Of a DNA stretch of 39,476 bases, positions 3,496 to 11,756 are shown piece by piece (positions within the stretch are counted from its first letter, which is position 1; the number at the start of each line of letters is the position of its first letter). Location of the stretch: the NCBI GenBank assembly GCA_029866055.1, contig JARXAG010000199.1, forward strand, positions 1-39,476, given 5' to 3'. A model generated the notes under the pieces. The model did no database searches and had not been told where the DNA came from. It worked only from the letters and a program-made list of their open reading frames with translations. The position numbers and the translations under genes are program-made. The DNA is from Burkholderiaceae bacterium (lineage in GTDB: Bacteria; Pseudomonadota; Gammaproteobacteria; Burkholderiales; Burkholderiaceae_B).

Positions 3496-4307
3496 TTGCC
3501 TCCAAACAGGCGCTTAAACAGGCCTGGTTTTGCGTAGTCGACAAAACGTAGTGGTTTTTCTTCGCCTAAATAGCGCGCGACCACATCTTGATACGCTTCA
3601 GCGACGTCGGTATCTTTGAGGTGAATCGCCGGCAAGCCCTGATTAGACGCTTGCAGAACAGACTCAGACTCGGGGATGACACCGATCAGTTTGATGCGCA
3701 AGATATCTTCGATGTCTTTGAGCGACAGCATCTCGCCGTCTTCAACACGCTTGGGGTTATAGCGGGTGAGCAGCAGGTATTCTTTGATCGGTTCATCGGC
3801 CTCGATGGCGCGACGCGATTTTGACGCCAAGATACCAAGGATACGATCCGAGTCGCGTACCGAAGACACTTCGGGGTTTGTGACTACCAACGCGTCATCA
3901 GCAAAATAGGCCGCTAACAGGGCACCCGTTTCGATACCTGCGGGCGAATCGCACACAATGTAATCAAACCCCATCTCTTTAAGGTCGTTGATGACTTTCT
4001 CGACGCCTTCTTGTGACAGCGCATCTTTGTCGCGTGTTTGCGAGGCGGGTAAAACAAACAGATTGTCGCAGTTTTTATCTTTGATCAAGGCCTGATTGAG
4101 AGTGGCTTCGCCTTGAATCACATTGACAAAGTCATAGACTACTCGTCGCTCGCAGCCCATGATCAAGTCAAGATTACGCAGGCCCACATCAAAATCGATC
4201 ACGGCGGTTTTAAAACCACGCAGGGCCAAGCCCGACGAAAAACTGGCGCTAGTGGTAGTTTTACCCACACCACCTTTACCTGAGGTCACCACTACGATAC
4301 GTGTCAT
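3492..4307 (-). CDS. minD: Septum site-determining ATPase MinD
   Basis: Deviant Walker [10 protein letters not shown]-terminal amphipathic helix [12 protein letters not shown]. Confidence 0.97.
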
Positions 4308-4346
4308 GACTGACTAACCCTTATGTAAGACTGCAATATTGAACGA

Positions 4347-5135
4347 CTATTTTTCAAGAGGCGTCAGATGCAACGCGTCTTTTTGCAGCTGAATCACAGC
4401 CGGACGCTGGTGCAGCTCGGCCGGTAATTTTGAATCGATTACACGATAAATACCAGCAACAGCGACAAGCTCGGCGTCAAGCGTCGTCGTAAAGATACGA
4501 GCCGCCGTGTCGCCGCGCGCACCTGCCATGGCTTTGCCACGCAGCGGGCCATAAACATGAATATTGCCGTCTGCAATAACTTCGGCGCCGCGGCTGACCA
4601 CACCCATCACGATCAAATCACTTTGGCGGGCATACACCCGCTGACCCGAACGCAAGGGGCCACGCACCACCATGGTGGGGGCGGCGTTTGGGCTGTCGGT
4701 GTTTGAGGTTTTGCTGTGCGTAACTGTTGCGCCAGCCTCATCCGCCGCCGCTGGTGCCGGTACGTTTGCCGTCACAGGCTCAACGACCGAGGCCGCTGTT
4801 TGCGTCTCTGCGGCATTGCGCACGGGGCTTGTCGATAAGTCAACCGCCGCAAGCCCGCAGGCCTTGGCCGCTGCTAAGTTATCGCCTTGCGCCACCACGC
4901 CAATGACAGGCAGGCGGTGGTCAGCAAAAGCCTTAAGCAAGGGTGCCCAGTCAACGACTTCGTCGACCGAACCCGCGTCAATGACCACGGGTTCGTTTTC
5001 ATAAAAAGCACCAGCGTCAGCCATGCGTTTTTTAAGCGCCTTGATTAGCGCTTTGGTATCAGCATGCTGAAGCACCACTCTAATCGCATAGAGTGTGGCG
5101 CTTTTAAAATCTAGGGCTGAAATGTCGGTCGTCAT
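4347..5135 (-). CDS. minC: Septum site-determining protein MinC
   Basis: C-terminal beta-helix [48 protein letters not shown]; upstream of minD. Confidence 0.95.
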
Positions 5136-5151
5136 GGCTCAGAATGATAAC

Positions 5152-6918
5152 TCAGACACCGGCAGCCCATGTGTCTTTTAAGGTGGTGACGCGATTAAAA
5201 ACAGGCCGTTCGAGGGTTGAGTCAACCGAGTCGACGGCAAAGTAGCCCAGGCGTTCAAACTGAGACACCACGCCAGCAGTGGCGACCGTACCCGGTTCAA
5301 GCCACGCCTTGACGCTTTGCGCCGAATTTGGATTCAGGCAGGCTAAAAAGTCGTTGTCGCCCGCATCCGGAAAAGGCTCTGAAAACAGTCGGTCGTATAG
5401 GCGAATCTCAGCGGGGATGGCTTGTGCCGCACTAATCCAAGTCACGGTGCCTTTGACTTTGACGGCATTTGAACCGGCCGTGCCACTTTTGGTATCGGGG
5501 TGGTATTCGGCATGCACTTCAGTCACTTTACCTGAGGAATCCTTAGTAAAACCTGTGCAGGTGACCACATAGCCGTACTTCAAGCGCACCGAATTGCCCG
5601 GAAACAACCTGAAGTACTTGGGCGGCGGCACCTCGGCGAAGTCTTCTTGTTCAATCCATAGCTCACGGGTAAACCCAAACTGACGCTGACCCACTTCAGG
5701 GTCGTGCGGGTTACGAGGTGCCTGACAGGGCTCTACCTGACCCGCCGGAAAATTGGTAATGACAAGCTTTAAGGGATCAAGAATCGCCACGCAACGAGGG
5801 GCAACCGGGTCTTGCACTTCGCGTAACGCTTGATCTAATAAGCTGTAGTCAATGCGAGCGTTATTTTTAGACACACCGGTGCGTTCACAGAACAGACGCA
5901 AGGCCTCGGGGGTGTAGCCGCGGCGGCGTAAGCCCACAATCGTTGGCATGCGTGGGTCATCCCAACCCGTGACGTGGCCCTCTTTGACCAGTTGCAGGAG
6001 TTTGCGTTTGCTCGTCACGATGTAGCTCATGTTGAGCCGGGCAAATTCGTACTGATGGGGCAGGGGGGCTGCCAACTTGCCAAGCTCGTTCAGTCGGTTC
6101 AGCGTCCAGTCGTAAAACGGGCGTTGGTCTTCAAACTCGAGCGTGCAGATGCTGTGGGTGATGCCTTCGAGTGCATCTTCGATTGGATGGGCAAAGGCGT
6201 ACATCGGATACACGCACCACTGGTTGCCGGTGCGGTGGTGGGTAGCATGCCGGATCCGGTACAAGACGGGGTCACGCAGATTGATATTGGGAGAAGCCAT
6301 ATCAATTTTTGCGCGTAACGCCATACTGCCGTCAGCGTGCTTGCCTTCGCGCATTTCGTTCAGTAACCGGGTTGAGTCTGAGGCAGGGCGCTCGCGCCAA
6401 GGTGAATTTTGACCCGCTTCAGTGAGTGTGCCGCGCATGGTGCGCATTTGTTCGGGGCTTTGCTCGTCAACATAGGCGTGGCCGGCTTGGATCAACGCCA
6501 ACGCGCAGTCATACATCACACCAAAATAATCGCTGGCAAAAAACAGATGCTCGCTGCCATTTGACTGCCAGTTAAAGCCTAGCCACTTGACCGCGTCAAT
6601 GATGCCGTCAACGTATTCTTGCTCTTCTTTTTCAGGGTTGGTGTCGTCAAAACGCAGATGGCACACGCCACCATAGTCGCGCGCCAAGCCAAAGTTCAGG
6701 CAGATGCTCTTGGCGTGGCCAATATGCAGATAGCCGTTGGGCTCGGGTGGAAACCGTGTGCGGATCTTGGCGGGATCGGGCGAGCCCGCGGCCTGCACAG
6801 ACGCTGGCCCCGGCTGGCCGGCCCACAGTTTGCCCGCAAAGCGCTGGGCGCTTAGGTCGGCTTCAATAATATTGCGTAAAAAATTGGTCGTTACCGGCGA
6901 AACAGAGTCTGTGGTCAT
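5152..6918 (-). CDS. glnS: Glutaminyl-tRNA synthetase
   Basis: 588 aa; RFPPEPNGYLHIGHAKSICLNFGLA and VTSKRKL signatures. Confidence 0.97.
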   Translation of the reverse strand: MTTDSVSPVTTNFLRNIIEADLSAQRFAGKLWAGQPGPASVQAAGSPDPAKIRTRFPPEPNGYLHIGHAKSICLNFGLARDYGGVCHLRFDDTNPEKEEQEYVDGIIDAVKWLGFNWQSNGSEHLFFASDYFGVMYDCALALIQAGHAYVDEQSPEQMRTMRGTLTEAGQNSPWRERPASDSTRLLNEMREGKHADGSMALRAKIDMASPNINLRDPVLYRIRHATHHRTGNQWCVYPMYAFAHPIEDALEGITHSICTLEFEDQRPFYDWTLNRLNELGKLAAPLPHQYEFARLNMSYIVTSKRKLLQLVKEGHVTGWDDPRMPTIVGLRRRGYTPEALRLFCERTGVSKNNARIDYSLLDQALREVQDPVAPRCVAILDPLKLVITNFPAGQVEPCQAPRNPHDPEVGQRQFGFTRELWIEQEDFAEVPPPKYFRLFPGNSVRLKYGYVVTCTGFTKDSSGKVTEVHAEYHPDTKSGTAGSNAVKVKGTVTWISAAQAIPAEIRLYDRLFSEPFPDAGDNDFLACLNPNSAQSVKAWLEPGTVATAGVVSQFERLGYFAVDSVDSTLERPVFNRVTTLKDTWAAGV

Positions 6919-6989
6919 ACAGGATTTTGAGTATTAAAGCCGTTTTAAAAGAATCATTTTGCCACGACCGGTCTACACTAGCCCAAATC

Positions 6990-8330
6990 ATGGAAATTTC
7001 AGCACTTTTTCTCGCCCGCGCGCAGTTCGCCCTGAGTCTGAACATGCACGTTCTGTTTGCTGCGCTCGCCATGGCGCTGGGCTGGATTCTGTGCGTGTTT
7101 CGGTTTCGCGCTTGGAAGGCTCCAGACTCTGGCTGGACGACCGCGTATCGGTTTTGGGTTCGGATTTTTGCCTTGTCCTTTTTTTTGGCGTTGGCGACAG
7201 CCTTACCGGTGCTCGTTGAGCTAGGCACGCTGTGGCCTGAATTGATTGAACGCACCGGTAACGTGGCGGGCCCCTTGCTGGCCTTTGGTATCACCACTTT
7301 TTTTGTCACAAAGTCGCTGTTTATGGGGGTGGTGCTGTTTGGGCAGCGTCGCGTGTCGGCCAAAGCGCATTTTTTTGCCGTGCTGATGGTGGCTCTTGGG
7401 TTGACGTTGACGCTGTTTTGGGCAGTCGTGTTGCACACTTGGGCGCAGGCGCCTGTCGGCGCAGGTTTAATCGACGGGCGTTATCAGGTGTATGGCTGGA
7501 ACGAAATCATCCTGACCCCATTTGTGCTGTGGCGTTCGGTGAGTTTCGTGGCGGGTGCATTTTTGTTTGCGGGACTGCTTTTGATTGGTGTGACGGCCTG
7601 GCAGGCGTTACGCCGCCCACCTGACGAAGGTGAACGCTTGTCGTTTCGCACTGGAGTACTGGTGTCTGTGTGTGCGATCGTGCTTTATTGGGCTGCCCTC
7701 GATGGTAATGCCAGAATGGTGGCGCGCTATCAACCCGCTATCGCCGCTGCTCAGGTGGGCGTCTGGCAGAGTTCAGCTGCTCCGAGCTGGGTGTGGTTGG
7801 GTGTGCCCAAGTTACAACAGCGTTCAACCGAGGTGTTTTGGGCCTCTGAGGTCAATCCCCAGCGGTGGTTGGGCAAGCAGACTGATACCAGCTTAGTTGG
7901 GCTGGATGTGACGGGTGAGTTGCTGCCACCTGTCGTCCTCTTGTTTTGGCTCTTGCGCGCCGCGTTATTGCTTGGCGCCATCGCCAGCGTGTTGATTGTC
8001 GTGACACTTTTGGTGGCGCTCAGGCGGGGGTTTGAGCCGTCGCGTCAGCCAAAGTGGTTGTTACGCATGCAAGTGTGGTCTGGTAGCTTAGGTGCATTAG
8101 CCTGGTTGGTGAGCTGGAACCTTTCAGATTTGGGGCGTTCTCCTTATTTGGTGTGGGGCACGTTGTTGCAACAAGATGCGCTGGCTGCTGTGGCACCGCT
8201 CACGCTGGCCTGGGTGTTGGCAGGGGCTGTCGCCACCTACGCAGTGATGTTGGCGGGGTTTATTCAAATGCTGTGGCATGCGGCGCGCTTTGGCGTTGTC
8301 CCGGTGCGCAAACCTGGGATGCGTCCATGA
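6990..8330 (+). CDS. Cytochrome bd-like oxidase subunit I (CydA/CioA family), highly divergent
   Basis: Start taken at ATG 6990 (MEISALFLARAQFALSLNMHVLFAAL) inside ORF 6927-8330; colinear with CydA/CioA by eye; followed by a CydB-like gene with ATGA overlap; many canonical ligands substituted. Confidence 0.85.
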   Translation: MEISALFLARAQFALSLNMHVLFAALAMALGWILCVFRFRAWKAPDSGWTTAYRFWVRIFALSFFLALATALPVLVELGTLWPELIERTGNVAGPLLAFGITTFFVTKSLFMGVVLFGQRRVSAKAHFFAVLMVALGLTLTLFWAVVLHTWAQAPVGAGLIDGRYQVYGWNEIILTPFVLWRSVSFVAGAFLFAGLLLIGVTAWQALRRPPDEGERLSFRTGVLVSVCAIVLYWAALDGNARMVARYQPAIAAAQVGVWQSSAAPSWVWLGVPKLQQRSTEVFWASEVNPQRWLGKQTDTSLVGLDVTGELLPPVVLLFWLLRAALLLGAIASVLIVVTLLVALRRGFEPSRQPKWLLRMQVWSGSLGALAWLVSWNLSDLGRSPYLVWGTLLQQDALAAVAPLTLAWVLAGAVATYAVMLAGFIQMLWHAARFGVVPVRKPGMRP

Positions 8331-9352
8331 TTGATGCATTGGCGGCTTCGCTGGGGTTAAACGTGGGGAATCCGGCGTTCTGGATGCCTTTGCTCATGAT
8401 GGGGCTGCTCTTTGTTTTAATTGTTGGCGCGGCCTTATTTGACGGATTCGATATTGGCGTGGGGGTGTTGGTGCTTCTGGCGCCCAAACAATCACGTTCG
8501 CAGTTGATGGTTGCCTTAAGCCCCTTGCGCGATGCCAATGGCTTTTGGATGCTGTTGGCGCTTGGGTTGTTTTTGACAGCGTTTCCGCTAGCCTGGGGTG
8601 AAGTGCTGGGGGCGCTGTATGTGCCGATGTCGTTGACGATGATTGGTGTCATGCTGCGTAGCGTGGCGTTTGAGTTTCGCATTCGGGCAGCGAGCGACAA
8701 GCGTGATCGCTGGATCGCCTTGTTTTGGCTTGGCTCGGTGTTAACGGCGCTGGGCCATGGCGCGTTAATCTCTCAGCTTGTCTTGGGTGCTAAAGAAGAC
8801 GCTCCAGCCGTCTGGTTTACGGGTTTCATTGCGCTGTGTGCGGTTGCTGGCTATGGCTTGCTAGGTGCCTGTTGGTTGGCGATGCGTTTGCAAGATGACT
8901 TGCAGGTGTTTGCTGCGCATTGGGCCCGTCATGCGATTCGTTGGACCGCCGCGGGCATGGTTGCGGTCTCGATCGCCTTGGGTTTGGCAAACCCAGCGAT
9001 ATTTTATAAATGGAGCAGTGCCACCAATCTTGTCATGGCGGCCCCAGTTTGGTTGCTGATGTTGGCGTGCTTTGTAGGCATCGATATGAGTCTGACCCGA
9101 GTGGTGCAAGCGCGCTACCAAAACTTAGTATGGCTGCCCTTTGCCTTGTGTTTGATTTTATTTTGCGCCATGCTCAGTGGCCTGACCTACAGCATGTTTC
9201 CGTTTGTGATCCTTGATCACCTCACGCTTTGGGACGCTGCTGCAGCGCCAGGTTCGTTGCAACTTGTGCTGGCCGCCACGATCGTGGCGTTGCCAATCAT
9301 GGTGATTTTTAATTTGGTGACATATCGAGGGCTGTTTGGTCGCGCGCCATGA
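8327..9352 (+). CDS. Cytochrome bd-like oxidase subunit II (CydB family)
   Basis: Start ATG 8327 overlaps the cydA-like stop; FDGFDIGVGVLVLL near the N-terminus, MFPFVILDHLTLWDA near the C-terminus. Confidence 0.88.
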   Translation: MIDALAASLGLNVGNPAFWMPLLMMGLLFVLIVGAALFDGFDIGVGVLVLLAPKQSRSQLMVALSPLRDANGFWMLLALGLFLTAFPLAWGEVLGALYVPMSLTMIGVMLRSVAFEFRIRAASDKRDRWIALFWLGSVLTALGHGALISQLVLGAKEDAPAVWFTGFIALCAVAGYGLLGACWLAMRLQDDLQVFAAHWARHAIRWTAAGMVAVSIALGLANPAIFYKWSSATNLVMAAPVWLLMLACFVGIDMSLTRVVQARYQNLVWLPFALCLILFCAMLSGLTYSMFPFVILDHLTLWDAAAAPGSLQLVLAATIVALPIMVIFNLVTYRGLFGRAP

Positions 9353-9369: not shown

Positions 9370-9403
9370 CGGCTAGTGGGAAGCTAAACGGCCAGTGGTA
9401 AGC
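9370..9403. repeat. Imperfect 15-bp direct repeat spanning the sensor kinase stop codon
   Basis: cggctagtgggaagc (9370-9384) and cggccagtggtaagc (9389-9403), 2 mismatches. Confidence 0.6.
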
Positions 9404-10937
9404 GAAGTTCGACCTTGAGCCCGCCATGATCAGCAGCCTGATCGAGCGTGAGCGTACCGCCATGCGCTGCCGCGATAGCCTCGGCAAGTGCCAAGCCTAA
9501 ACCCACATTCCCCGTTCGCGTGCGCGCCTCGTCGAGTCGTACAAACGGCTTGAACGCCTCGGCGCGCCGCTCAGGCGGGATCCCCGGGCCGTGATCTGTG
9601 ACGGTGAGCACCGCCCAAGTGTCAACAGAGCTCAATGAGACCTCTACGGGTGGCGCGCCATGATGCAGCGCATTGCTGATTAAATTATCAAGCAGGCGCG
9701 AAAGCGCCGCGCCATCAGCACTCACCATGAGAGACGTGGGTGCGCCCACCAAGATGACCTCATTGCGTGTACCGCTCCAGTTAGCGACGCGTTCACTCGC
9801 CCAGTCATTCAGCGCAAATCTTGCAAAATGATAAGTCGCCGGATCAGAGCCTCGCAGGTACTGAATAAACTGATCCACCATTTGCTGCATGTCTTGCAGA
9901 TCTTTGCGCATCCCGTCTTTGAGCGACGTATCGTCGCTCATTTCAATGCGTAACCACATGCGCGCGAGCGGGGCTTTCAGATCATGAGGCAATCCTGCCA
10001 GCAAGGTGCGACGAGTCGCGTCTGATTGGCTCAAGGCCTCGAGCATGGCGTTAAACCGTTCGCCCAGGCGTTTGATTTCGGCTGGGCCCGCTGGTTCAAC
10101 GCGCGCCGGCTTTCCGGCAGCCAGACGATCGGTCGCATCGACCAAGCGCGTGATCGACCGTGTGATATGCCATGAAAACCACGCTGCGAGCAGTAGCAAC
10201 AAGGCAAGCCCGCTAAGCCACCAGATGATGAGCGAGGTGGCTAAAGGGGGATCAATCCGATCGAGTGGAATGACCAGCCACTCACGATGGCGAGGTGACT
10301 CGGTTTCGTTCGGTCGCGTGAGCGAAATATAAATTTCTGGAATAGGCCCGCGTGACAGAGCCACACGGCTATCCCCGCTTAAACGATTGTTCAAGCGTCC
10401 GATCAACCGCGCAAGTCCACGCCTGACATCGTCTGAGGCAAACTGTTCGCGTGGTCCGGGCTTTACTGGAGCGAGTGCCGCGGGATGCTCAGGTGCTGCA
10501 AGCGCGGTAGAAGACCCTGTTGCGGCAGGTGGAGCAGGAGGTGAAGACCGCTCTGCGGGTCGAGGATGAGTTGGCTGCGCGCGCGGGGCTTGCCCATCCC
10601 TTGGTTGAGGCATGCGCGTCGCCGCTTGTTCGTTTCTGGCGGCTCTGCGTTGAAGTCGTGCATCGTTGGGCAAGGGTTTAGACCACATCCGCCAATGCCC
10701 TTGAGAGGCCTGATGCACGAACTCTGCCCGCTCGGGGGGGGGCACGTGCTCCATTGAGTACTGCAAGGTACGGATCGTGGTGGCAAGTAAATCTAACGCC
10801 ACGGTTTGAGCGTGATCGCGTTGGTAAATCGACACTAAATACAGGGTGGCGGCCTGACCGGCCAGCACCGTCGCCAGCACTAACAGCACCAGCCTAGAGC
10901 GAAACGACTGCGGCAGTAAAAAGCTGAGCGGGTTCAC
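9384..10937 (-). CDS. EnvZ-like sensor histidine kinase
   Basis: 517 aa; two TM segments, HAMP-like region, H-box LPHDLKAPLARM, N-box LLDNLISNALHHG, G-box DHGPGIP and GLGLALAEAIAAAHGG. Confidence 0.93.
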   Translation of the reverse strand: MNPLSFLLPQSFRSRLVLLVLATVLAGQAATLYLVSIYQRDHAQTVALDLLATTIRTLQYSMEHVPPPERAEFVHQASQGHWRMWSKPLPNDARLQRRAARNEQAATRMPQPRDGQAPRAQPTHPRPAERSSPPAPPAATGSSTALAAPEHPAALAPVKPGPREQFASDDVRRGLARLIGRLNNRLSGDSRVALSRGPIPEIYISLTRPNETESPRHREWLVIPLDRIDPPLATSLIIWWLSGLALLLLLAAWFSWHITRSITRLVDATDRLAAGKPARVEPAGPAEIKRLGERFNAMLEALSQSDATRRTLLAGLPHDLKAPLARMWLRIEMSDDTSLKDGMRKDLQDMQQMVDQFIQYLRGSDPATYHFARFALNDWASERVANWSGTRNEVILVGAPTSLMVSADGAALSRLLDNLISNALHHGAPPVEVSLSSVDTWAVLTVTDHGPGIPPERRAEAFKPFVRLDEARTRTGNVGLGLALAEAIAAAHGGTLTLDQAADHGGLKVELRLPLAV

Positions 10938-11650
10938 GGCGAAAAGCGATAGCCGGTACCCCAGACCGTTTGTATCCAGCGAGGCTGTTTGGGGTCGTCT
11001 TCAAGGGCGCGCCGCAGGCGCAAAATGGCAATGTCGATGGCGCGATCATTGCGCTCACCAGATTCATCATCGCGAGCCAGTGTCAGTAGTCGTTCACGTG
11101 AAAGAGGTTTGCCCGGATTGCGAATTAAGGCTTCAAGCAGGTTGATTTCACCTCCGGTCAGCTTGACGACTTCAAGGCCGCGCAGCAGTTGGCGCATGAC
11201 TGGATCAAAGGTAAAGGCACCAAACTGCACCGGCGCATTTTTGGTCAGTGCCGAGGCGCCGCGCTTGCGACGCAGCACGGCTTGAATGCGGGCAAGTAAT
11301 TCGCGTGGATCAAACGGCTTGCCAACATAGTCATCGGCGCCTGCCTCAAGGCCGATAATGCGGTCAACCGATTCGTCGCGCGCGGTTAACAGAATGACGG
11401 GGATGTCCTCGCCCTGCGCTCGCAGAGCTCGGCACGCCTCGGCGCCGTCGCCCCCTGGCATCATGCGGTCAAGCACGATCAATTCGGGGGCAAACCTTAA
11501 GATACGCGCCGCGAGATCGGTCGCGTCTGGCGCGAGCAGGGTATCAAAGCCATGCTTGTTGAGATAGTCTGCGAGTAGTTGACGCAGAGCAGGGTCGTCA
11601 TCGACCACTAAAATCTTGATGCGCGGTTCAGTGCCAGTTCGAGAATCCAT
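10934..11650 (-). CDS. OmpR-family response regulator
   Basis: KILVVDDDPALRQLL, VLDRMMPGGDG, VILLTARDE, C-terminal winged helix ending WGTGYRFSP; 4-bp overlap with kinase; ORF opens at 11665, likely start at 11650. Confidence 0.93.
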   Translation of the reverse strand: MDSRTGTEPRIKILVVDDDPALRQLLADYLNKHGFDTLLAPDATDLAARILRFAPELIVLDRMMPGGDGAEACRALRAQGEDIPVILLTARDESVDRIIGLEAGADDYVGKPFDPRELLARIQAVLRRKRGASALTKNAPVQFGAFTFDPVMRQLLRGLEVVKLTGGEINLLEALIRNPGKPLSRERLLTLARDDESGERNDRAIDIAILRLRRALEDDPKQPRWIQTVWGTGYRFSP

Positions 11651-11756
11651 ACCGAGAGTGTGCAACGCGGCGTGGGTTTGAGCAAGCGGCTTGAAATCAA
11701 TTGAAATGATCTTTTATGGGTGCGTGCACGTTGAGCGAATCCCCTACAATACCGGC

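Follow-up and report, generated by a model that had tools for sequence, protein, structure and literature searches.

A CydAB-like gene pair of the Alcaligenaceae, stripped of most haem and quinol residues of cytochrome bd, as a probable pseudo-oxidase

We found that a CydA-like gene and its CydB-like partner, shared by many Alcaligenaceae, lack the b558 and quinol site of cytochrome bd together with two of its acidic residues, and that both genes are under strong purifying selection. The pair is probably (at roughly 0.78, judged from sequence comparison) a conserved non-oxidase, or "pseudo-bd", complex, whatever its exact task; the alternative that it acts as a regulatory partner of another complex partly overlaps with this reading. 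A sequence-only reading of the same DNA had proposed that the pair has a different cofactor set, electron donor or function rather than being an ordinary quinol oxidase. The fixed substitutions, the selection on the pair and the conservation of CydB strongly support that proposal; relatives also lack H19 and E445, which makes it more likely that the family overall has no redox role than that it has a different cofactor set.

Folds and residues of the gene pair

The window, by which we mean the whole stretch of 39,476 nucleotides analysed (contig JARXAG010000199.1 of assembly GCA_029866055.1), comes from a 2.6 Mb genome of freshwater type within the Alcaligenaceae. Residues 8-434 of its CydA-like protein align with positions 1-416 of the 418 in profile PF01654 (275 bits, E = 1e-81), and AlphaFold2 predicts a confident CydA fold (mean pLDDT 89.8). 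Solved bd oxidase subunits rank first in Foldseek, with bd-II CydA as the best match (7ose_A, TM 0.89), at an identity to solved CydA structures of only about 20%. The start codon is taken as the ATG at 6990, since the equivalent ATG begins the frames of close relatives; the TTG at 6927 chosen by the ORF finder is unneeded. The gene had been described as intact and coupled to a CydB-like partner, and its open frame does end in an ATGA overlap (8327-8330) that joins its stop to the CydB-like start. CydA and CydB folds are thus encoded in one operon, as in cytochrome bd, and a CydB-like open frame lies directly downstream of the CydA-like gene in all clade relatives examined. A consensus scan found no sigma-70 promoter upstream of the pair.

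Table 1. Features of the window, with residues numbered after the E. coli proteins where a counterpart is given
Feature	Position	Strand	Evidence
glnS, divergent neighbour, conserved across the family	5152..6918	-	74% identical to the B. pertussis neighbour
CydA-like subunit, 446 aa, with substituted haem/quinol residues	6990..8330	+	PF01654 275 bits, AlphaFold2, Foldseek
His20 = H19, kept in window lineage; lost in Bordetella, Achromobacter, others	7047..7049	+	alignment
Gly100 = E99 lost	7287..7289	+	Glu in 0/97 distinct divergent vs 40/40 canonical
Lys108 = E107K, invariant clade signature	7311..7313	+	Lys in 97/97 divergent, 0/40 canonical
His149 = N148 replaced	7434..7436	+	alignment
Ser185 = b558 ligand H186 lost; position varies freely among relatives	7542..7544	+	alignment
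Q-loop K252 (Ile251) and E257 (Val256) lost	7740..7757	+	alignment
Ala325 = b558 ligand M393 lost; R391 two residues earlier kept	7962..7964	+	alignment
Asp380 = b595 ligand E445; E/D/Q in window lineage, mostly hydrophobic elsewhere in clade	8127..8129	+	alignment
CydB-like partner, 341 aa	8327..9352	+	PF02322 178 bits, E = 3e-52
CydB-like Arg68-Asp69 = CydB W57-D58	8528..8533	+	W57R 98/98, D58 kept 98/98
CydB-like Glu116 = CydB D105, proton-channel acid	8672..8674	+	alignment; Glu in 98/98
Convergent sensor kinase, orthologue of RisK	9384..10937	-	53% identical to the B. pertussis kinase exactly flanked by published risK primers
OmpR-type response regulator, BP3222 orthologue	10934..11665	-	81% identical

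Residues are numbered after E. coli MG1655 cydA, whose residues at the cited numbers we confirmed. MG1655 CydA, the window protein, the canonical second CydA of the window genome and relatives were aligned, and repeated MAFFT alignments with differing sequence sets gave the same residues each time. The assignments that had been made from the letters alone agree with this alignment in both coordinates and residues: H19 is kept, E99, E107, H186, M393 and N148 are replaced, the Q-loop positions K252 and E257 are hydrophobic, and E445 has become Asp, a conservative change, with Glu still present in close relatives of the same lineage. The window protein thus carries Ser and Ala in place of the two b558 ligands (H186 and M393), and His, Asp and Gly at the high-spin positions H19, E445 and E99; Ile and Val occupy the Q-loop sites, and the proton donor E107 is Lys, as it is in all 97 divergent sequences. 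Among 40 canonical CydA sequences all of these sites are invariant, except that N148 may be N or D, and the substitutions in the window are therefore not due to chance. The broader claim, that nearly all haem and quinol residues are gone, was right for every site listed as changed but did not take in W441, R448, R9 and D239 around the high-spin haems, which the window lineage keeps. This indicates that what has been lost is the whole b558/quinol site together with E99 and E107, with the high-spin axial positions (H19, E/D445) partly kept in the window lineage.

His occurs only four times in the window protein (20, 127, 149 and 430). As candidates for a substitute haem ligand, no other His is conserved across the clade except H126, which is common to canonical enzymes, and the C-terminal His430; nor is there a conserved His or Met beside the lost sites. 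At the position of N148 the window genus has His, whereas most other clade members have Gln or a hydrophobic residue; this lineage-specific His149 might conceivably act as an alternative haem ligand.

Distribution, phylogeny and constraint

Judged by score, the divergent form occurs in roughly half of the 270 genomes searched from the same family (a count from the hit list). The divergent relatives are Alcaligenaceae, comprising Bordetella, Achromobacter, Pusillimonas and freshwater genera; outside this family, in searches of 199 genomes from the order, 274 from the class and 299 from the phylum, every top-scoring locus that was fetched and aligned proved canonical. Isolates from several genera carry the pair, and we rejected the idea that it is an artefact of metagenome assembly. 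For residue comparison, 97 distinct divergent sequences, with loci fetched by several routes, were compared with 40 canonical ones, which came from within the Alcaligenaceae as well as from elsewhere. The split between them is absolute: position 107 is Lys in 97/97 divergent and Glu in 40/40 canonical sequences, and E99, H186 and E257 are each found in none of the divergent and all of the canonical ones. M393 is kept in nine of the 97 relatives and K252 in about three quarters.

The tree groups the divergent sequences in a single long-stemmed clade (SH-aLRT 100), whose sister is a canonical CIO-type CydA of a Bordetella. Mapping the sites on this tree placed a single change at each of E99, E107, H186, E257 and N148, all on the clade stem. 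H19 is kept in the window lineage and was lost later in the Bordetella/Achromobacter/Pusillimonas lineage, where E445 is also mostly hydrophobic. This order indicates a stepwise dismantling, in which the quinol/b558 end and the catalytic acids went before the last haem ligands. In most of the clade H19, E99 and E445 are all gone, which leaves no haem ligand. One locus (L050, G179:C4:1380500-1387000) has a CydA-like gene with an in-frame stop near the start and a different N-terminus, and is perhaps a decaying copy.

The order minD, minC, glnS, divergent pair, convergent kinase and regulator is common to much of the Alcaligenaceae. From freshwater Alcaligenaceae to Bordetella, orthologues of RisK (BP3223) and of the co-operonic OmpR-like BP3222 (9384-11665 on the minus strand of the window) keep their convergent orientation to the pair. 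In Achromobacter the downstream region is rearranged, and the two-component genes now lie a few kb distant.

The frames of the pair are intact, and median pairwise dN/dS is 0.09 for the CydA-like and 0.06 for the CydB-like gene within the window genus, and 0.12 in Achromobacter. The earlier view that the pair has not simply decayed is borne out by its forming a monophyletic, syntenic family under purifying selection, with the CydB partner and channel residues conserved. About 11 of the 31 window-genus genomes lack the pair, which suggests that it is useful but dispensable. By hand counts, about 21 of 30 positions invariant in canonical CydB are kept in the clade, against 26 of 55 in CydA.

Constraint extends to the cytoplasmic proton channel, assigned by cryo-EM to CydA Lys53, Lys57, Glu74 and Glu107 and to CydB Asp58 and Asp105 (PMC13189123). 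At the four CydA positions the clade has Arg, Arg, Leu and Lys in 97, 97, 96 and 97 of 97 sequences, respectively, and at the two CydB positions Asp and Glu, in 98/98 each; CydB R100 is invariant as well. Thus the cytoplasmic half-channel and the interface are kept, with the terminal proton donor now a lysine beside a new arginine. Two clade-invariant charge changes, W57R (CydB codon 8528-8530) and E107K (CydA codon 7311-7313), may lie near one another at the subunit interface.

The pair in Bordetella

The cydAB3 genes of B. bronchiseptica (BB4012-4011) are listed as encoding a high-affinity bd oxidase (PMC11257404). In B. pertussis the counterpart of BB4011 is BP3224 (PMC1891110), and RisK, a kinase, is BP3223 (PMC5020355). 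A search of the Bordetella genomes with one of the published primers for risK deletion gave a single exact match, and all four risK primers fall exactly around the kinase that adjoins the divergent pair, one of them inside the CydB-like gene. The divergent pair there is therefore BP3225-3224, that is, cydAB3. Bordetella cydAB3 shares both the clade of the window pair and its synteny with glnS and risK; although published as a bd oxidase, its CydA, as seen in the B. pertussis pair, is without H19, E99, E107, H186, M393 and E445.

The CydB-like gene of the primer-matched genome is interrupted; in the B. pertussis-type genome with locus L175 (near 3622-4809) two overlapping open frames share the CydB-like sequence between them. 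This agrees with a published survey, in which cydB3 was interrupted in about half of the B. pertussis strains (PMC11257404). No B. bronchiseptica strain in which cyd3 alone was intact could be obtained, deleting cyd3 left growth in air unaffected, and cyd3 was transcribed at a low level; low expression was those authors' suggested explanation for the failed cyd3-only strains (PMC11257404). The B. pertussis orthologue has been called a second bd ubiquinol oxidase and reported not to be expressed in the laboratory (PMC12914433). This literature fits a non-oxidase but does not prove one, as low expression explains it equally well.

Proposed function and its alternatives

The account that we favour begins in the ancestor of the Alcaligenaceae, where the duplication of a CIO-type cytochrome bd would have given rise to a CydA/CydB-fold membrane heterodimer that ceased to act as a quinol:O2 oxidoreductase. 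On the stem, the b558/quinol site (H186, E257 and, in most members, M393) was lost together with the acids E99 and E107, the latter giving way to the invariant Lys, and the remaining high-spin ligands H19 and E445 followed in the Bordetella/Achromobacter/Pusillimonas lineage, steps that can be read directly from the sequences. Strong purifying selection still acts on the fold, on the CydB partner and on the cytoplasmic channel where the subunits meet, as the substitution rates and conserved residues demonstrate. Most of the family would then bind no haem, oxidize no quinol and reduce no O2. In the window protein, His20/Asp380 may bind one or two high-spin haems; the presence of H19, E/D445, W441, R448 and R9 makes at least one such haem possible in its lineage. 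The kept half-channel, which would now end in a buried Lys-Arg/Asp cluster, may serve a non-redox membrane task. Its ordered conservation, set against the free variation at H186, is our main reason for proposing a task related to ions or protons. Candidate tasks are proton or anion handling, pmf- or quinone-related sensing, and a structural role, among which we tentatively favour ion or proton handling; that a haem-free CydAB-fold complex was retooled for ion or proton handling, or for pmf-sensing, through the old half-channel with its buried invariant Lys is likewise possible rather than probable.

The nearest known systems differ from the pair in several respects. CIO-type (short Q-loop) CioAB/CydAB enzymes share its fold, its two-gene operon and its domains (PF01654/PF02322), and are the sister group of the clade in the tree; unlike them, the clade is without the b558 ligands (M393 persists in 9/97), E99, E107 and E257, has E107K and CydB W57R fixed, and in most members lacks H19 and E445. 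The OR-N and OR-C families of Murali et al. 2021 are reportedly oxygen reductases without a quinol site. The clade resembles them, to the extent of the description available, in lacking that site; active-site haems are expected in those families by the same description, whereas here the catalytic acids are lost, the active-site ligands survive in part in the window lineage but not in most relatives, and most members have no haem ligand. Murali et al. are also said to describe an archaeal CydA', a CydA paralogue with altered haem sites that replaces CydB beside an active CydA in CydAA'; the altered CydA here differs in that it is paired with a CydB of its own and is not linked to an active CydA. 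CydB itself is without the canonical haem ligands, so that haem-site loss in the CydA/CydB fold is known in principle; what appears to be new here is a stripped CydA within a CydA/CydB pair.

Two functional alternatives need to be weighed against a non-oxidase complex. The pair could be an active oxidase with fewer cofactors, which would bind high-spin haems (one or two) at H19 and E/D445 but lack b558 and take electrons from a donor other than quinol, like OR-N/OR-C; the residues kept around the high-spin haems in the window lineage would suit such an enzyme, and OR-N enzymes have been proposed to take electrons from cytochrome c rather than quinol (PMC10839748). We consider this improbable, because the haem d acids E99 and E107 are gone in every member, E107 being inverted to Lys, and because most of the clade keeps these signatures and yet has lost H19 and E445, a pattern that favours a single non-redox function common to its members; nor is an electron-donor gene linked to the pair, whose neighbours are glnS, the min genes, the two-component system and recQ. 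That the pair regulates or structurally assists a different respiratory complex, docking with or competing for canonical bd subunits and tuning their assembly with no channel function of its own, is unlikely: such a role would agree with the conserved heterodimer fold and CydB surface, and the window genome does encode one canonical CydA and two haem-copper oxidases, but the pair is unlinked to the canonical operon and has its own dedicated CydB in every case.

Explanations that deny the pair a function or the alignment its validity are far less probable still. Decay into a pseudogene pair, which the loss of catalytic residues and the interrupted cydB copy of B. pertussis (PMC11257404) might suggest, is hard to reconcile with full-length frames in dozens of genera, dN/dS of 0.06-0.12, conserved synteny and new clade-specific invariant residues in both subunits; it is refuted family-wide by the dN/dS values and synteny, decay being confined to some lineages. 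An error of alignment, with the true ligands at neighbouring positions, is a concern at about 20% identity, and we rejected it as scarcely credible on the strength of 26 kept invariant residues that anchor the alignment (R391 near M393, G447 and P450 beside E445, and F104 near E107) and of the count and placement of His and Met described above.

A haem-free CydAB-fold complex would, if true, be to our knowledge the first known non-redox member of the bd superfamily, and the pair is present in Bordetella. Within the literature searched, outside of which Murali et al. 2021 falls, no pair of stripped CydA and CydB has been described that is family-wide and labelled as an oxidase in a well-studied pathogen. 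Annotation pipelines label the pair an oxidase, and the bd superfamily is treated as one of haem oxygen reductases. Should the pair prove to be a conserved pseudo-oxidase, Bordetella and Achromobacter would have one terminal oxidase fewer than is now counted, and the failure to make a cydAB3-only Bordetella would have a simpler reason. The family would then offer a natural experiment in what CydAB is capable of without haem.
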